A DNA stretch of 53,823 nucleotides, taken from Planctomycetota bacterium. Its GTDB lineage: Bacteria; Planctomycetota; UBA1135; GCA-002686595. The DNA lies in assembly GCA_029248265.1 (NCBI GenBank), contig JAQWJQ010000298.1:1-53823 (forward strand). The letters are read 5' to 3'. A program made the position numbers and the translations under genes. The notes under the pieces are model-generated. The model ran no database searches and was not told where the DNA came from. It saw only the letters and a program-made list of their open reading frames with translations. Positions 9,528 through 24,913 of this stretch are shown one piece after another. Positions within the stretch are counted from its first letter, which is position 1; every line of letters starts with the position of its first letter.

Positions 9528-12500
9528 TCAGTCGAAGGACTGCGACCAGGTCGCGTCCCCGCAGCGAATGCGGAAGTCCCAGCTGAACAGATCCGCCGCG
9601 CTCGTCTGCCCCGGGGCCATGACCACCCAGATCACGTCCCCCGGCTCCATCCATGTGGGATCTGAGGTGAGCGCAGGCGGCCCCGAAGCCGGGAGCGACT
9701 GCTCGAAGAGGGTCGTCGGGGCACTGCCTGACTGATGGGCATGGAGCACCCGGGCGATCAGCTCCGAGCTCCCCACCTGGGTGGAGGCGAGCCCCTCCAC
9801 CAGATAGAAGCCCGCGAGCTTCACGGAGTACCCGGCGGCCACGACCCCCTGCGGCACACCCGGCGGCAGCTCGAGCACGCCCTGACCGGGTCGCCCGTAG
9901 CCTTGACCAAGCCAGCCGCTCGCGGGGGTGGGGCCGGCGTAGCGGCGGTTCAGGGCATCCCAGGTGAGCGCCACGTACTCATCAGGATCGAGGGCGGCAG
10001 CGACGTCGTTGCGCCGGAGGAACCAACCGTCGGGGGGGGACCCCTGGCGGAACAGGTCTGTGGACGCAGCGACGGTCCGCGGCGAGCCGTCCACGACGGT
10101 GAACGGAACGGAGAAGGTCGCGCCCCCCGCCGGGGTGGCGTCCAGCCGGTAGGCGCCTGGCTGGAGGTCGAAGCCCGGGACCCCCGAGCCAAAGGCACGG
10201 AAGGGACCGTGGGGGACCGTCGAACGGCGCAGCTCCACCGGAGCCCCCGAACCGACGTCGAGCAGGACGAGCTCGACCTCTCCCTGGGCCACATCGAGGT
10301 TCACCCGAAGGTCGACCGTCGCCGCCCCGAGCCGGGCTGGATCGAGCTGCTGACCGGACTCCAGCGCGCCGATGACCCGGTCCCTGGACATCAGTGAGAC
10401 CCCGCGAACCGCGGCGACGCGCGCCCCCCAACGATCGAGGAGCCAGCGGTCCACGAGCACCGGCGAGCCATCCACAGGGCGCTGCTCGTCGGGGCGCGGC
10501 CGCGGCGAGCCCCCGGCGTCGACGATCCCGTTGGGGATCGCTCCACCCATCCTCGCGGGGGGCTGCGACGGCTGGCGCCGAGGGTCGCGGAGGGCCGCGA
10601 GCCCCGGACGATAGGCGAGCGCATCGAGCCCGAGCCCGCCGGGCGCTCCCGCGGTGTGGCAACTGAGGCAGAAGCGATTCGTCCTGGAGTCCGGCCGCGG
10701 CCGGTCCTGAAAGATCGGACCCTCAGGGAAGTGCATGGCCGCCCTTTGGTGGTGCGCGCCCGCGGGGATCGAGCCCCGGTGCACGCCCAGGTCCCTTGAA
10801 GCGTCCACGAAGGACGCATAGCGCTCCTCCGTCGGTTCCCCGCGACGCCGCAGGGCCTCACTCACCTCCTCGTGGGCCCAGGCCGGGAAGCGGGCCGCGA
10901 GCCGGTCCATCCAGCGCGAGGACTGGGCGTCCTCAGGGAAGCCGATCAGCGTTCCCCGGGCGTGGTTGGCCGCGGACTCTGGATCCACGTCGTGGGCCAG
11001 GACCTTGAACTCATCGATCCAGCCCCGCAGGGAGGACGCGCCACCGGCCACCGCTCCACCCACGGTGACGGCGCCGGCCGGCGCGAGCGGCTGGAAGATG
11101 GAGCGAGCGGGGTCTTGCCAGCGATCCAGCGGGAAGCCGTCGAGGAGCAAGGTGACCCGCTGGCCCGCGCGCTCGATCCGCAGGCCCACGTGGGTCCAGG
11201 CCCCCGCGCGGAAGAAGCCGTGCACCGCGGGTGCCTGGCCGCCGTCCGGGTCGTAGCTGAAGTCTCCGGGCAGGAGGACTCGGTGGATCACGCGATCGCC
11301 GTCGACGTAGCGGACGGATGACCTCCCGAGCAGCTCGACCGACGTGCCGTCGGGGAAGGTGACCAGGGGGCGGCGCTCACCGTCGTCATCGAAGCGGCAG
11401 TCCACGAACAGCCCCACGTAGAAGGCCTCGGGCTGGGGAACCCCGGGCACAGCCCGGTCCGGAGCGTCAAAGCGCAGGCTCAGCCCCCCATCAAGCCAGA
11501 GACCCCGACCGTACACGCCGCCCAGGGCCGCGGGCTCGAGGCGGCCAACGGTGCCGCTGGTCGGGATCAGTTCGCCGAAGGCCGGCACGCGCCAGGTGTC
11601 CGCGTCGGTCGCCGAGTTCTGCAGCTGCACCGGGAGGTCAAATGCACGGGTGACGGGGTTCCACCCGGAGCGGTGCTCCAGGTCGTTGAACCCTGACCCG
11701 GCGAGGTCCGGGAGGGTGAGCCGCCCGTTCATCTCCGCCACGATGAGCGCGTCGGGGTCGAGGAGGTCGTCGAAGGCCACCTCGTCGGTGTGCTTGCCGT
11801 TCTGGACGTGCCACACGACGTCCCGGAGGAGCAGCGGCCGCAGGCGCTCCGAGGCGTGCAACTTGCTCTCCGTGGACTCGATCACCGAGCTGTTCCCGTT
11901 GACGCCCGAGGGCAGGCCCGGGGTCTCTGACGCCCTGCCGTAGCCGAGCCGAACCCAGCCGCTGGTCGGGTCCAGGGAGGGCACCCCTGACCCCTCGAAC
12001 AGGCGCACCAGTCGCTGTTGCGGCCCGACGTTGTAGGGCGCTCCGCCGTACGAGCTCGCCTCGGAGTGGCCGATGGCGAAGTCCATGTCGTTCAGGAGCC
12101 CATCCAGCAGCACGGTCTTACCCCGGGTCCAGAGGCCCGCCACCGCCACCCCCTGGAACGTCCGGCTCGACTCCGCCCCCCAACGCTCCCTCGGGTCGCC
12201 GGGGACGCCCACGGCCTCGTAGCGAGTCTGGGTCCACTCCGCGGCGCTCTGCGGGTCGCGGTTGGGGAACTGTGGGTTGAGGTCCTGCAGGTGCAGGGTG
12301 TCGCCAATCGTGGTGTAGAAGAGGTTGCGCGCACCGCGGTCGATCCAGGGGTAGGCACCACCGAGGTCCTCCCAGTCCGGCACGACCTCCCCATCCGGCG
12401 CGCGGAAGGGGAACTGCGCGAAGCCGAAGCCCCCCAGCTCCATGGGTCCGTTCAGCCGCGGGTCATGGGGCGCGTGACTGATCGGGTACACCGCGGTCCA

Positions 12501-13313
12501 GTGGGCCGGGTTGGCGCTCCCCCGGGTCCCCGCGGGGTCCTCATAGTAGGAGTAGACGATGTCCGCCGCCCCCGGCCCCGACGGGGTCGGGAGGTCACCG
12601 GAACGAATCCGCATGACGAGCAGGCGGCCGTCCCCGGCGATCATGGGCTCGAAACCGCCGCCCGAGTGGAAGGCGCCCGTGGCGAGCTCGGAGAAGTTCG
12701 GCCCCGCGATCGTGGGTCCCTCCACCTCGATGCTCGCGATGTGCGCCCGCGCCGTCTTGGGCGCGGCGACCTCGATGGCGAGCGGCGTCATGAACAGCTG
12801 CAGGCTGCCGCCAGGTCCCCGCGTGGTCACCACGGCCTTGACCTGGTAGCGATCCCGCCCGGCAGGCGTGCGGGTAGGGAGCTCGTCGTCCCAGAAGCAG
12901 CTCTGAATGATCTCACGCCCCGTGCCAGCGGCGAGAATCTGCGCCTGCGTGACCGGGTCACCGCCCACGTAGGCCCAGCCGGTCCAGCGCAGGTTCGCCT
13001 CACCGGCGGGCTGCAGCATGAGGGGCGCGCCCCCGCCCCGGCGACGGAGCTTCTCCGGAGTGAAGAGCGTGAAGCGCGGCGCCCGCGCCACCGTCATGGC
13101 CAGGCGGCCATCCTGCGAGGTCCGGAAGGCCGGCAGGTGAGGTCCCTGGAAGCGGGGGTCGTGGTCCTGCTCCAGCGGGCCCCCCTCGTCGAGGACCCCC
13201 GTCACCTCCCGCCAGATCGAGGGCCGCTCCGGCAACGCCTGCCCGGGCGACAGGGAGACCAGCTGGCATGAGAGCAGCGCGAGCGCCCCGAGACTCCTCC
13301 TGCTCACCATCAT
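9528..13313 (-). CDS. Giant exported protein with LamG-like domain and one CxxCH site
   Basis: 1261 residues, third gene of the redox operon, starting 5 bases after the peroxidase stop. The N-terminus (MMVSRRSLGALALLSCQLVSL) is a signal peptide. Residues about 50-560 are beta-rich and resemble the propeller-like middle region of large planctomycete cytochromes. Residues about 600-800 look like a LamG/concanavalin-type jelly roll (HVGLRIERAGQRVTLLLDG, GWIDEFKVLAHDV). A single class I c-type haem motif CLSCH is at 882-886, in a segment similar to PSCyt1 cytochromes. The C-terminal 250 residues are beta-rich and unassigned. With only one haem site it is probably an electron donor, acceptor or substrate for its neighbour rather than a multihaem wire. 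Function unknown; partnership is inferred from the operon. Confidence 0.8.
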   Translation of the reverse strand: MMVSRRSLGALALLSCQLVSLSPGQALPERPSIWREVTGVLDEGGPLEQDHDPRFQGPHLPAFRTSQDGRLAMTVARAPRFTLFTPEKLRRRGGGAPLMLQPAGEANLRWTGWAYVGGDPVTQAQILAAGTGREIIQSCFWDDELPTRTPAGRDRYQVKAVVTTRGPGGSLQLFMTPLAIEVAAPKTARAHIASIEVEGPTIAGPNFSELATGAFHSGGGFEPMIAGDGRLLVMRIRSGDLPTPSGPGAADIVYSYYEDPAGTRGSANPAHWTAVYPISHAPHDPRLNGPMELGGFGFAQFPFRAPDGEVVPDWEDLGGAYPWIDRGARNLFYTTIGDTLHLQDLNPQFPNRDPQSAAEWTQTRYEAVGVPGDPRERWGAESSRTFQGVAVAGLWTRGKTVLLDGLLNDMDFAIGHSEASSYGGAPYNVGPQQRLVRLFEGSGVPSLDPTSGWVRLGYGRASETPGLPSGVNGNSSVIESTESKLHASERLRPLLLRDVVWHVQNGKHTDEVAFDDLLDPDALIVAEMNGRLTLPDLAGSGFNDLEHRSGWNPVTRAFDLPVQLQNSATDADTWRVPAFGELIPTSGTVGRLEPAALGGVYGRGLWLDGGLSLRFDAPDRAVPGVPQPEAFYVGLFVDCRFDDDGERRPLVTFPDGTSVELLGRSSVRYVDGDRVIHRVLLPGDFSYDPDGGQAPAVHGFFRAGAWTHVGLRIERAGQRVTLLLDGFPLDRWQDPARSIFQPLAPAGAVTVGGAVAGGASSLRGWIDEFKVLAHDVDPESAANHARGTLIGFPEDAQSSRWMDRLAARFPAWAHEEVSEALRRRGEPTEERYASFVDASRDLGVHRGSIPAGAHHQRAAMHFPEGPIFQDRPRPDSRTNRFCLSCHTAGAPGGLGLDALAYRPGLAALRDPRRQPSQPPARMGGAIPNGIVDAGGSPRPRPDEQRPVDGSPVLVDRWLLDRWGARVAAVRGVSLMSRDRVIGALESGQQLDPARLGAATVDLRVNLDVAQGEVELVLLDVGSGAPVELRRSTVPHGPFRAFGSGVPGFDLQPGAYRLDATPAGGATFSVPFTVVDGSPRTVAASTDLFRQGSPPDGWFLRRNDVAAALDPDEYVALTWDALNRRYAGPTPASGWLGQGYGRPGQGVLELPPGVPQGVVAAGYSVKLAGFYLVEGLASTQVGSSELIARVLHAHQSGSAPTTLFEQSLPASGPPALTSDPTWMEPGDVIWVVMAPGQTSAADLFSWDFRIRCGDATWSQSFD

Positions 13314-13318
13314 CTATC

Positions 13319-14338
13319 TCAGCGTGACATCGCCTTGAGGAAGGCCACGAGCTGCGCGGCCTCCTCGTCGGTCAGCTCGATGGAGCCCATGCGTTCGGAG
13401 AGGTGCGGGTTGGCGTTGCCGCCCTCGCGGTAGAAGTCGACGACCTCGGCGAGGGTCGCCAGGCTCCCGTCGTGCATGTACGGCGCCGTCTTGGTCAACA
13501 TGCGGAGCCCGGGGGTTCGGAAGCGCCCCTGGTCCCCATCCACTCCGGTGATCGCGAAACGGCCCGGCTCCGGCGCACCGTCGGCGACGCCGACGCCAGT
13601 GTTGTGGAACGACTCGTCGCTGAAGTTCGGGCCGTTGTGACACCGCCAGCAGCGGCCGCGGCCCTCGTAGATCCAGAGCCCCGCCTCCTCATCGGCCGAG
13701 AGGGCCTCGACGTCACCGTCGCGGAAGCGATCCACGGGGGAGTCGCCCACGGTCAGGCCACGGACGAAGCCAGCCAGCGCGGCGGCGAGCGCCGCGTCGT
13801 CCACCTCTCTCCCGAAGGCCTTCTGGAACTCGGCCGCGTAGGACGGGTCGCTGGAGAGGCGGTTCACCGCCGCGGCCTTACCGAGCCCCATCTCCTCGGG
13901 GTTCTCGATGGGCATCAGGACCTGATCCTCGAGGGTCGCCGCACGGCCGTCCCAGAGGACCTTCTCGCTGAGGCCCTTGTTGAGCAGCGAGGGCGCGTTG
14001 CGGAGGGTCAGGTAGCCCTCGATCCCGCGCGAGAGCTTGCGGTTGTCCGCAAAGCCGAGCTCGGGCTGGTGGCACGAGGCACAGGAGACGGACCGTCGCG
14101 GGGACAGCACCGGGTCGAAGAAGAGCCGCCGGCCGAGGTCAAAGACCTCCTGGGTCGCTCCAAAGCCCTCCGCGAGCTCCTCCACGCCGAGGGGCGCGGT
14201 GCGCACGAAGGGTGTGGGGAGGGAATCCCGTGGAATCAGAGGGGGGCCCTCGTCGTCCTGCGCGAGCTGCGCGGCGGCGAGGAGCGGCAGAAGGGCCAGC
14301 CACCCGAGGCGCCCCACTCCGATTCCACGGTCTCCCAT
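13319..14338 (-). CDS. Di-haem cytochrome c peroxidase / MauG family protein
   Basis: Periplasmic enzyme of 339 residues, the usual length. An N-terminal hydrophobic segment (about 8-24) should direct export. Two haem sites are visible: CASCH at 86-90 and CWRCH at 230-234. The family hallmarks follow: [13 protein letters not shown] before haem 1, LRNAPSLLN and [12 protein letters not shown] after it, and [21 protein letters not shown] near the C-terminus, where the methionine is a usual haem ligand. Relatives either reduce hydrogen peroxide (CcpA) or oxidise protein side chains at long range (MauG); sequence alone does not decide. It starts 6 bases after the selenoprotein-like gene and ends 5 bases before the giant CxxCH gene, so the three are almost certainly cotranscribed. 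This context makes a modifying role on the giant protein worth considering. Confidence 0.92.
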
Positions 14339-14344
14339 GTCGGT

Positions 14345-15424
14345 CTACTTGCCCTTGGCCTTGGCCAGGAGTTCCTCGACGACCGCGTCGATCGCCGTCC
14401 CGTCGTGGCCGCGATAGGCGATGGTGCCGTCCGTGTCGAGCACGAGGTAGGTGGGGTAGCCCCGGACCTTGTAGAGGTCCGAGATCGGCGTCATGGCCAT
14501 GCCCTGATAGGCGCTCAGCCAGGTCAGGCCGAACTCCTTGACGCCGTCGTGGTACGCGTCGGGCTCGTCGCCAGTGTTGATTCCGATGAGGGCGAAGGGG
14601 TCGTTTTCGTGACGCTCAACGAGCGTCTTAAGGTGCGGCATGCCGCGCCTGCAGGGGGGTCACCAGAACCCGTAGAAGTCGAGGGCCACGACCTTGCCGC
14701 GGTAGTCCTCGATGGAAAACTGAAAGCCGTCGATCGTCTCGCCGACGAACGTGGGGGCGACCTTGCCGACCTCGGAGTCCTCAGCCGTCGCCCTGGAGGC
14801 GCGGGCCGCGGTGCCGTACACGGTGTTCGAGTACTTCTCGCCGATCTCGGCCATCAGCTTCTCGGAACGAGCAGCGTCGCTGTCCGCGAGCATCATTGCG
14901 GTGAAGAACAGGGAGGCCGCCTTGGCGTTGTCCGACTTGGCGGTCTGGGCCGCCTTCTCGAGCATGGCCACGGCCTCGTCGACGCCGACGTACTTCTTGT
15001 TGGCCGCGAGGCTCTTGACCGCGCTCGTGAACCACTCGGCGTCCGCGTGGTTGTCGATGATCGACTTGAACAGCGGCGTGAGCACCGCCCCGCGGTCCTT
15101 GGAGCGGACGTCGCGGTTCTCCTTGATGTGCTCCACGAGCCACAGCGTCGCGCGGCCCTCACCCGCAGCAGACATCGCCTCGAACTTAGGCCAGTAGCGC
15201 TTGATGGGAGAGTTCCCACGGAGCGCCCGGCGCTGCGCCTTATCGGCGCCCTTGAGCTCCTTGGTGTGCACGACGAGCGCAGCTTCGAACTCCTCGTCGA
15301 GGGCGGCAAAGTCGTCGACCGGCGCGGCCACCGCGAGCGCGGTGGGCACCGTCTCGACGACGGGGTTGGCCGCATAGGCGGCCACGGGAATCAATGCGAC
15401 TCCCAGGATGAACTTGAATCTCAT
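14345..15424 (-). CDS. Exported thioredoxin/TlpA-like protein with in-frame TGA at the active site (probable selenoprotein)
   Basis: Read through one TGA (14660-14662), this is a 359-residue protein. The ATG at 15424 starts a signal peptide ([18 protein letters not shown]); a TTG 14 codons upstream is less likely. Residues about 25-205 are helical. Residues about 210-359 are a TlpA-like thioredoxin fold: [25 protein letters not shown], then TGA-Pro-Pro-Cys, RRGMPHL, and the cis-Pro loop [11 protein letters not shown]. The TGA is codon 255 and replaces the first cysteine of the expected WCxxC; C258 remains. Both halves are in one frame, the downstream half keeps every expected motif, and the next gene starts 6 bases after its stop. 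Selenocysteine in a U-x-x-C redox motif is a known selenoprotein arrangement. Alternatives are a sequencing error or nonsense mutation of TGC or TGT. Other genes here use TGA as a stop, so genome-wide recoding is unlikely. Confidence 0.75.
14611..14650 (-). promoter_or_regulatory. Candidate bacterial SECIS hairpins just after the in-frame TGA
   Basis: Two hairpins lie within the coding sequence after the TGA. The first (14631-14650) pairs AGG-C-GCGG with CCGC-A-CCT, seven pairs with one C-A mismatch and a CATG loop that begins 18 bases after the TGA, the same distance as the loop in the E. coli fdhF SECIS. The second (14611-14627) is a perfect 7-bp stem, GACGCTC with GAGCGTC, around a GTT loop starting 40 bases after the TGA. 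Known SECIS loops carry G or GU and lie roughly 16-37 bases from the UGA. The first fits by distance, the second by loop. Neither is proven. Confidence 0.45.
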
Positions 15425-15531: not shown

Positions 15532-15554
15532 CAGAGCGCCTCAGAGGCGCTCTG
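15532..15554 (-). terminator. 10-bp hairpin spanning the YqeY stop codon
   Basis: CAGAGCGCCT (15532-15541) and AGGCGCTCTG (15545-15554) form a perfect 10-bp stem with a 3-base loop. The TGA stop (15541-15543) of the YqeY-domain gene lies at the tip, so its last codons encode one arm. It probably ends the gyrA transcript; there is no T-run immediately after. Confidence 0.6.
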
Positions 15555-15981
15555 CCGCGAGGCGGTTCACGAGCTTGCCATCGATCACATCCCGGTGGCT
15601 CGCCATGACCGCCTTCATCACCTTGCCGATGTCACACTTCTCAGTGGCGCCGGTCTCGGCGATCGCTTGCTCCACCACGACGGCGGTGGCCGCCTCGTCG
15701 AGCATCGTGGGCAAGTAGCCCTCCAGGAGGGCGATCTCCGCCTCCTCCTTCTCAGCGAGATCGAGACGGCTGGCCGCACGGTACTGCTCTGCGCTGTCCT
15801 TGCGCGACTTCACGCCGCGCCGGACCACCGCCATGACGCCTGCCTCGTCGAGGTCTGAGCCTCGCTCGATGCGCTCGTTCTTCATGGCGGCGATGAGCAT
15901 CCGAAGGGTGTCGCGGCGCAGGGTCTCACCGGCCTTCATGGCCGCCTTCAGGTCATCGTTGATGGTCTGCTCGAGGGACAT
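15541..15981 (-). CDS. yqeY: GatB/YqeY-domain protein
   Basis: 146-residue cytoplasmic protein of the GatB/YqeY family, whose helical C-terminal domain resembles the tRNA-binding tail of the GatB subunit of the amidotransferase. Hallmarks are the N-terminal SLEQTINDDLKAAMKAGE, RRDTLRMLIAAMKNERIERG, and the C-terminal GKVMKAVMASHRDVIDGK with the final LVNRLAAERL. The length is standard (about 148). The ATG at 15981 is preferred: it follows the gyrA stop by a single base (TGA-T-ATG), and the frame further upstream only shadows gyrA. Translational coupling to gyrA is likely. Its exact role in bacteria lacking GatCAB partnership is uncertain; it may affect tRNA-dependent amidation. The stop lies in a terminator-like hairpin. 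Confidence 0.9.
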   Translation of the reverse strand: MSLEQTINDDLKAAMKAGETLRRDTLRMLIAAMKNERIERGSDLDEAGVMAVVRRGVKSRKDSAEQYRAASRLDLAEKEEAEIALLEGYLPTMLDEAATAVVVEQAIAETGATEKCDIGKVMKAVMASHRDVIDGKLVNRLAAERL

Positions 15982-15982
15982 A

Positions 15983-18580
15983 TCAGTCCTCCTCCGGGGC
16001 CTCGGGGTCGCTCGCGCTGTCGTCCTCGGGCGTCGCGCCCGCCTCCGGCTCAGCGGCGGGGGCGATGCCTCCCTCCGTCTCCCCGTCCTCGGACGCTTCA
16101 CCCTCCTCATCGGCAAACCGCTCGAGGTCGGCGCTGGAGATGATCTCCACCGAGACGAGGCTGTCGCCGTCCTTCAGGTTCACCAGTCGCACCCCTTGGG
16201 TGTTGCGGCCCACCGTGTAGATGTCCGCGATGGACGTCCGCACGATCATGCCGCTCTCGGTGATGAACATGGCTTCGTCCTCCTCGCGGCAGAACTTCGC
16301 GGTGATCACCTTGCCGTTCCGCTCCGTGGTCCGGATGTCGATCACACCCTGGCCTCCGCGCCCCTTGATGGGGTAGTCGGAGAGCGGCGTGCGCTTGCCG
16401 TACCCGTTGACCGAGGCCGTGAGCAGGAACGCGTCGGGCTCCGCCACGACCATGCCAACGACCTGGTCGTCGGCCAGGAGCTTGGCACCCTTGACCCCCC
16501 GTGACGAGCGGCCCGTAGCGCGGACGCCGGATTCGTCGAAGCGAATCGCGCGACCACACGCCATCGAAAGCATGACGGTGTCGCCGGGGCTCGCCAGGCG
16601 AACCGACACGACCTCGTCGTCCTCGTCCACGAGGATGGCCCGAATGCCGCCCTTCTTGGGGCGCGAGTAGGCCTCAAGCTTCGTCTTCTTCACCACCCCC
16701 TTGCGGGTCGCGAAGACGATGAAGCGCTCCTCGTCGAACTCCGGAACGCGGAGGATCGTGTGAATCTCCTCGCCCTCACGGAGCTTGAGCAGGTTCGTGA
16801 TCGCGCGCCCTTTCGAGCTCCGGCCCGCCTCGGGGACCTGGAAGCCCTTCTTCCAGAAGACCTGGCCGTAGTTCGAGAAGAACAGCAGGTAGTCATGCGT
16901 CGAGGTCACGAAGAGGGACTTGAGGACGTCGCCCTCCTTGGCCTCAGAGCCACGGATCCCGCGGCCACCGCGGGCCTGAGTGCGGTACGTGTCCAGCGGC
17001 GTCCGCTTGACGTAACCGTCCCGGGAGAAGGTGACCACCGTGAGGTCCTCGGTGATGAGGTCCGCGATGTCGACACTCCCGTCCACCTCCTCGAGGCTGA
17101 TCTGGGTGCGGCGCTCGTCGCCGTACTTCTCGACGACCTCGATCAGGTCCTCGCGGATCATCTCGGTCACGCGCTCGGCGCGCTCGAGGATGTCCTTGAG
17201 GTCGGCGATCCGGGCCATCAACTCCGCGTGCTCGGCCTCGAGCTTGTCCCGCTCGAGCCCGGTCAGGGAGCCGAGGCGCAGGTCGACGATGGCCTGGCTC
17301 TGACGGTCCGAGAGGCTGAACTCCGCGGCCAGGGCCTTCTTCGCCGTGTCGCGATCGGCCGACCCACGGATGATCTCGATCACCCGGTCAATGTTGTCGA
17401 CGGCGATCCGCAGGCCGTCGACGATGTGCTTGCGCTCCTCGGCCTTGCGCAGGAGGTACTTCGTCCGGCGCCGGAGGACTTCGCGGCGGTGCACCAGCCA
17501 GGCGTTCATCAGCTCGCGCAGCGAGAGCGTGCGCGGCTGGCGGCGGTCGATGGCCAGGTTGATGATCGAGTACGTGCTCTGGAGCGGCGTGAACTTCCAC
17601 AGCAGGTTGAGGACCACATGGGGGTCCTCGCCCTTCTTGATCTTCACCACCAGCCGCATGCCGTCGCGGCTGGAGTAGTCCGTCACGTCGGAAATGCCGG
17701 TGATCCGGCCGTCCTTCACGACCTGGACGATCTTCGCGATGATCCCGGAGTCCTGCCCGCCCTTCTTGGTCTGGTAGGGGATCTCTGTGAAGACGATCTC
17801 CTCGCGGTTCTTCTCCTCCTCGATGTGGTACTTCGCCCGTACGCGGACGAGCCCGCGGCCCGTGCGGTAGGCCTGGACGATCCCGCTGCGGCCCATGATG
17901 GTGCCGCCCGTGGGGAAGTCCGGTCCGGGGACGAGGCTGAAGAGCTCCTCCTCCGGCAGCTCCGGGTCATCGAGCAGCGCGATCAGGCCAGCGCCGATCT
18001 CACGCAGGTTGTGCGGCGGGAGGCTGGTGGCCATGCCGACGGCGATGCCGTCGGAGCCGTTGCAGAGCAGGTTCGGGAAGCGCGAGGGCAGCACCGTCGG
18101 CTGCATGCGCGTCTCGTCGTAGTTGGGCTCGAGGTCGACGGTCTCCTTGTCCAGATCGGACAGGACCTCCATCGTGATCCCCGCCATGCGCGCCTCGGTG
18201 TAACGCATGGCCGCCGGCGGGTCCGCATCGATGGAGCCGAAGTTCCCCTGGCCGTCCACGAGGGGATAGCGCAATGAGAAGTCCTGGGCCATGCGGACCA
18301 GGGTCGGATAGATCACCGACTCGCCGTGCGGGTGGTAGTTACCGGACGTGTCGCCCGCGACCTTGGCGCACTTCCTGTACTTGGCCCGGGGGCTCAAGTT
18401 CAGATCGTTCATCGCGACGAGGATGCGTCGCTGCGAAGGCTTGAGGCCGTCGCGAACATCAGGGAGCGCGCGCGAGTGGATGACCGAAAGGGCGTACGTG
18501 AGGTACGACTCTTTCATCTCGCGCTCGATGGAGCGCTTGGTCGTATTGCCCCCGAACTGGGGTGCTTCCGTGTCGGTCAT
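15983..18580 (-). CDS. gyrA: DNA gyrase subunit A
   Basis: 865 residues, full length. It cuts and rejoins DNA and, with GyrB, introduces negative supercoils. The N-terminal breakage-reunion domain holds the catalytic tyrosine Y127 ([10 protein letters not shown]) and the segment [13 protein letters not shown]. The C-terminal beta-pinwheel carries the GyrA box QARGGRG (about 545), which marks a true gyrase rather than topoisomerase IV. In the quinolone-resistance region the residue matching E. coli S83 is Ser (S88), but the residue matching D87 is Pro (P92). The C-terminus ends in a long acidic tail rich in Glu, Asp, Ala and Pro, a variable region in the family. gyrB is not adjacent. The downstream YqeY gene is coupled by one base. 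Confidence 0.97.

Positions 18581-23548: not shown

Positions 23549-24913
<1,365 letters not shown>

Follow-up and report, generated by a model that had tools for sequence, protein, structure and literature searches.

A predicted active-site selenocysteine in a thioredoxin-like protein from a planctomycete

Introduction

Does an in-frame TGA at the catalytic centre of a thioredoxin-like gene mark the end of a broken protein, or does it specify selenocysteine (Sec)? The question arises from a contig of a Planctomycetota bacterium (GenBank assembly GCA_029248265.1, contig JAQWJQ010000298.1), the whole 53,823-nucleotide stretch of which is called the window here. A sequence-only reading of the window had proposed that a gene for an exported TlpA/thioredoxin-like protein carries Sec in place of its first catalytic cysteine. 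We have followed up this proposal in homologues of the gene, in the Sec machinery of the genome and in the RNA structure downstream of the TGA.

Results

Positions 15424-14345 of the minus strand form a frame that begins with ATG, ends with TAG and contains a single internal stop, the TGA at codon 255 (14660-14662, minus strand); with UGA read as Sec, it would encode a TlpA/ResA-like protein of 359 amino acids. The TGA occupies the first catalytic position of the thioredoxin domain, FYGFW-U-PPC, and the resolving cysteine of the UxxC motif is Cys258 (TGC, 14651-14653, minus strand). One frame broken solely by a TGA at the place of the first catalytic cysteine was what the sequence-only reading had described, together with an intact, cis-proline-containing thioredoxin domain in the downstream half and a neighbouring gene that starts 6 nt past the stop, and all of this was confirmed. 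The read-through protein scores above the Pfam cut-offs for AhpC-TSA (7.4e-15), Redoxin (1.4e-13) and Thioredoxin_8 (2.2e-12), the loop is GYPT with Pro324, and the neighbour encodes a MauG-type di-haem cytochrome c peroxidase (13319-14338, minus strand). We also scanned the window against its relatives for conserved in-frame TGA codons, filtering by the coding-frame G+C pattern and reading the outcome by eye; the same scan without coding-frame composition was swamped by the shadow frames of this G+C-rich genome. The TGA at codon 255 was the only conserved in-frame TGA in the window with a coding-frame G+C pattern on both sides, apart from one at 24911 that resembles a gene's own stop.

The N terminus of the protein (15368-15424, minus strand) resembles a signal peptide, judged by eye and by hydrophobicity, and the structure model has low confidence at residues 1-34; export is predicted on this basis. 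The model as a whole (mean pLDDT 90.9) is confident in an all-helical domain at residues 39-217 (14774-15310, minus strand), which is TPR-like at best: it had no PDB match with E <= 0.001 and only weak TPR-like matches to YfgM, CpoB and kinesin light chain. A thioredoxin fold of the ResA/CcmG kind follows at residues 218-359 (14348-14773, minus strand), and Pro324 and Thr325 of its cis-proline loop are invariant or nearly so among the homologues. Residues 213-358 of the model match the DsbE and ResA structures with Z of about 21 and an rmsd of 1.6 Å, and the protein lies below the NCBIfam cut-offs for ResA (73.5 against 170), TlpA (50.9 against 230) and DsbE (29.2 against 123), so we call it ResA/CcmG-like in working but do not file it as such. 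It shares with ResA, CcmG (DsbE) and TlpA the fold, the position of the active site and the cis-proline loop; it differs from them in its predicted Sec for the first cysteine and in its additional helical N-terminal domain.

The TGA is conserved well beyond this genome. We searched 61 genomes (the window's own plus 60 others drawn from its genus, family and order) and found homologues in 61/61, mostly with exactly one TGA. The relatives were expected to show TGA at this codon and not TGC or TGT, and they did so in 30/30 retrieved loci, consisting of the window's own and its 29 nearest relatives in other genomes. Among 122 distinct homologues the active-site codon is TGA in 98, TGC or TGT in 22 and something else in 2, and the second active-site cysteine (TGC/TGT), and with it the UxxC motif, is kept in 98/98 of the TGA homologues. 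The named sources of the homologues are Planctomycetota, except for seven sequences from Verrucomicrobiota and one from Armatimonadota. There are six such TGA genes in the window's own genome (G000); the five further TlpA-like genes (L151, L152, L153, L154 and L155) lie on contigs C99, C156, C141, C304 and C51. One relative (G013) has three homologues in tandem (L156:1-9356), with TGT as the active-site codon in one of them and TGA listed for the others.

The sequence that follows the TGA is under purifying selection. In the nearest orthologues dN/dS downstream of the TGA is 0.09-0.31, similar to the upstream value; one near-identical pair with four changes fell outside this range and is uninformative. 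Synonymous change is also scarce immediately after the TGA, having occurred in 1/19 codons of the first 20 as against 69/184 upstream (Fisher p = 0.004), and this near-halt appears to be due to a hairpin that is located there.

The genome has the machinery that Sec insertion would need. It is a bin of 4.2 Mb in 313 contigs, 83% complete, and the sel genes lie on contigs other than the window's. We found selB (a 677-amino-acid open frame scoring 349.5 bits, with its neighbours in frame, against a cut-off of 242), selA (455.5 bits), selD (326.6 bits, on the same contig as selA) and a tRNA-Sec with anticodon TCA (70.5 bits against a gathering threshold of 47); all four components that the sequence-only reading had said should be sought are therefore present. 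Among the outcomes that this reading had named as counting against it were a genome devoid of selB and selC and close relatives that all have cysteine, and we saw neither. Among the tRNA-like matches examined, which are part of the genome's tRNAs, no other tRNA had a TCA anticodon. A TGA also breaks the frame of selD, at codon 20 (AACAG-U-AAKM; L018:1474-2550), where one would be expected, and this gene is predicted to encode a selenoprotein too; a hairpin with a GGUGC loop is located 32 nt downstream of that TGA. In the set of 61 genomes selB was found in 59; two TGA-bearing relatives (G031 and G033) had no selB match, perhaps because they are incomplete. Across Planctomycetota selB exceeded its cut-off in 190/294 genomes, and Sec use appears to be common in this phylum.

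A conserved SECIS-like hairpin downstream of codon 255 had been sought as a check on the proposal, and one was found. The proposed SECIS, GACGCU-CGUUG-AGCGUC, has a loop of the form N1-G-U-N-N2 and is located at 14611-14627 (minus strand), 38 nt past the UGA. A hairpin of this type, with a stem of at least 5 pairs, is present at +38 in 30/42 members of the window's group, where redrawing of synonymous codons leads one to expect 3.7. All 56 members of the other group, distinguished by the motif HERSLV, have instead a hairpin at +31 with a GGUC loop (2.7 expected under the same redrawing and stem threshold), and the codons GAG CGG TCG CTC are identical in every one of them. Neither type occurs in the Cys homologues (0/22; p = 9e-16). 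When 37 sequences are aligned without gaps, three pairs of the +38 hairpin show both partners changed; cells with such compensatory changes number 21, shuffles giving 9.5 (0/500), and one pair is broken in 7/35 distinct rows. The RNAalifold consensus consists of the +38 hairpin and nothing else. The pairing shows through in the protein: with R at 271, the residue at 267 is T, A or S 21 times, and with L at 271 it is never one of these three, while E or K is found with both.

Another hairpin, AGGCGCGG-CAUG-CCGCACCU, is located at +17, between the UGA and the proposed SECIS (14631-14650, minus strand). It is variable in the relatives, is absent from the RNAalifold consensus and lacks a leading G in its loop, and we rejected it as the SECIS.

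Like the consensus bacterial SECIS (PMC13188914; E. coli formate dehydrogenase genes), the hairpins described here are stem-loops 3' of a UGA with G and U at the apex, the apical loop being GGUC in the large clade and C-GU-U-G in the window's gene. They differ in the position of the loop, which is at 31 or 38 nt. The bSECIS criteria, as set out in a 2026 review, place the loop 16-37 nt from the UGA (PMC13188914), and G is called for within the first two positions of the loop; the sister type at 31 nt falls within this range, whereas the window's hairpin has a covarying N-G-U-N-N loop but, at 38 nt, lies one nucleotide past it. The window contained no match to any RNA family of Rfam. We counted 84 occurrences of the pattern TGA-N27-GAGCGGTCGCTC, spread over 53/294 Planctomycetota genomes and 78 of them as UxxC, and selB accompanies the TGA-hairpin-UxxC motif in 45/48 genomes, as against 145/246 of the others (p = 7e-7).

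A quick tree of the family needs ten changes between Sec and Cys, their direction unpolarised, and well-supported branches force three of the ten. A Cys homologue in the complete genome of Adhaeretor mobilis (L074:6001-6585) has what appears to be a decayed hairpin, CACGAGCGGTATCTCGTT, and selB did not exceed its cut-off in that genome; together these observations suggest a reversal from Sec to Cys. An apparently decayed hairpin, CAAGAGCGGTCTATGGTG, is found in another Cys homologue (L130:6001-6405). Both homologues are probable Sec-to-Cys reversals.

Discussion

From the frame, the machinery genes, the conservation of the TGA, the selection after it and the covariation of the hairpin, all read in sequence, and from a fold supplied by a model, we infer that Sec is inserted at the UGA of this putatively exported TlpA-like protein, with a probability of roughly 0.95. 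With SelD supplying selenophosphate, SelA would convert the selC product to Sec-tRNA-Sec, and SelB would bring it to the ribosome and bind the hairpin 38 nt past the UGA, resulting in Sec where translation would otherwise stop. The protein would then be exported and its signal peptide cleaved off, and the U-P-P-C site may cycle through a selenenylsulfide as it reduces, or exchanges, disulfides in exported proteins. A cysteine codon that has mutated or been misread, giving a truncated protein, would need only one base to change (TGC to TGA), and the window does come from a metagenome bin. Sequencing error is untenable because nine genomes of the genus, each assembled separately, share this TGA. 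The purifying selection downstream, the suppression of synonymous change, the absence of the hairpin from Cys homologues and the presence of TGA in 98 of the 122 distinct homologues also argue against a truncated protein; we regard an explanation of this kind as scarcely credible. Suppressor tRNAs and reassigned UGA codons occur in bacteria, and an opal suppressor that inserts cysteine or another amino acid, or a genome-wide sense meaning for UGA, would account for read-through with no involvement of selenium. This is very improbable: tRNA-Sec is the sole TCA-anticodon tRNA among the matches examined, TGA serves as the normal stop in members of the family, in-frame TGA is otherwise unconserved in the window, and the hairpin and its association with selB favour SelB-dependent recoding.

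What the predicted selenoprotein does is less clear-cut than its recoding, and gene linkage provides the pointer to a client. The order gyrA-yqeY-tlpA(Sec)-mauG, anchored upstream by a YqeY-like gene (15541-15981, minus strand) and further upstream by gyrA (15983-18580), recurs in every genus member whose contig is long enough. Going by this linkage, the likeliest client would be the c-type di-haem MauG-like protein encoded next to it. The CxxCH cysteines of that protein would have to be reduced for haem attachment, a task that ResA and CcmG perform elsewhere. A role in cytochrome c maturation is our leading guess, and a tentative one: the assignment of the client is a guess because the linkage holds only within the genus, the paralogues being located elsewhere. 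The selenoprotein could instead be a general exported disulfide reductase or isomerase, or a peroxide-handling redoxin that contributes to oxidative-stress defence, and we rate this at slightly better than even odds. The many paralogues (six genes in one genome), the confinement of the MauG linkage to one genus, the AhpC-TSA and Redoxin matches and a TPR-like domain that could bind other partners are in agreement with such a general role, while the strictness of the linkage within the genus and the closeness of the thioredoxin domain to the ResA, DsbE and CcmG structures speak against it. The MauG gene adjoins, on its other side, a gene (9528-13313, minus strand) for a 1261-amino-acid protein that has no Pfam match, contains a haem-like CLSCH motif and is syntenic in the nearest genus members.

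Selenoproteins of this general description have been catalogued before. A thiol-disulfide isomerase-like selenoprotein with UxxC (cd02966/PF13905) was initially described on the basis of four sequences from the Sargasso Sea (PMC1088965) and is also listed in PMC9312934; among the predicted selenoproteins tabulated in the 2026 review are a UxxC 'thiol-disulfide isomerase-like protein' (cd02966) and a 'Prx-like thiol:disulfide oxidoreductase' (PF00578) with UxxC or UxxU (PMC13188914). The first resembles the window's protein in its TlpA-like thioredoxin domain, its UxxC and its prediction from TGA and homology; the comparison is by description only, and the entries in these sources mention neither a SECIS type nor a lineage nor an N-terminal domain. 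The second, as listed, shares the Pfam family and UxxC, whereas the window's protein is nearest to the ResA/CcmG fold and has an extra helical domain and a signal-like N terminus. The window's protein therefore joins a known kind. The sequence-only reading had called such proteins little studied: this is fair for Planctomycetota, where a search, with most subscription literature and preprints outside it, found no publication on planctomycetal Sec-containing TlpA proteins, and it is too sweeping for UxxC TlpA-like selenoproteins at large (PMC13188914, PMC1088965). The family is large, widespread in Planctomycetota and present in Verrucomicrobiota too, and what is little described is its scale, its paralogy, its helical N-terminal domain, its hairpin types and its Cys homologues with decayed hairpins.

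On balance we lean towards seeing in this family an ancient exported thiol-disulfide system, multi-copy and selenium-based, across Planctomycetota and their relatives, lineages with haem-copper oxidases included. Such a system would have its own SECIS types, one of them past the accepted range, base-pairing that limits the choice of amino acids beside the active site, and Cys homologues that have reverted from Sec and retain the hairpins in decayed form. Because gene callers end these proteins at the UGA, the annotation of a major environmental phylum may show a large class of exported redox enzymes as broken or split in two. Two hairpin types in one family, accompanied by apparent fossil hairpins, make SECIS evolution and Sec-to-Cys reversal directly testable. 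The review describes Sec-rich bacteria as mostly anaerobic, and no planctomycete is named in it (PMC13188914); in Planctomycetota we found selB in 190/294 genomes and Sec-TlpA genes in several copies per genome. In two seaweed planctomycetes sel genes and a few selenoproteins have been reported (PMC4807772). A gene of the haem-copper oxidase family was found in the window's genome, and an aerobic or microaerobic way of life is therefore possible for its organism.
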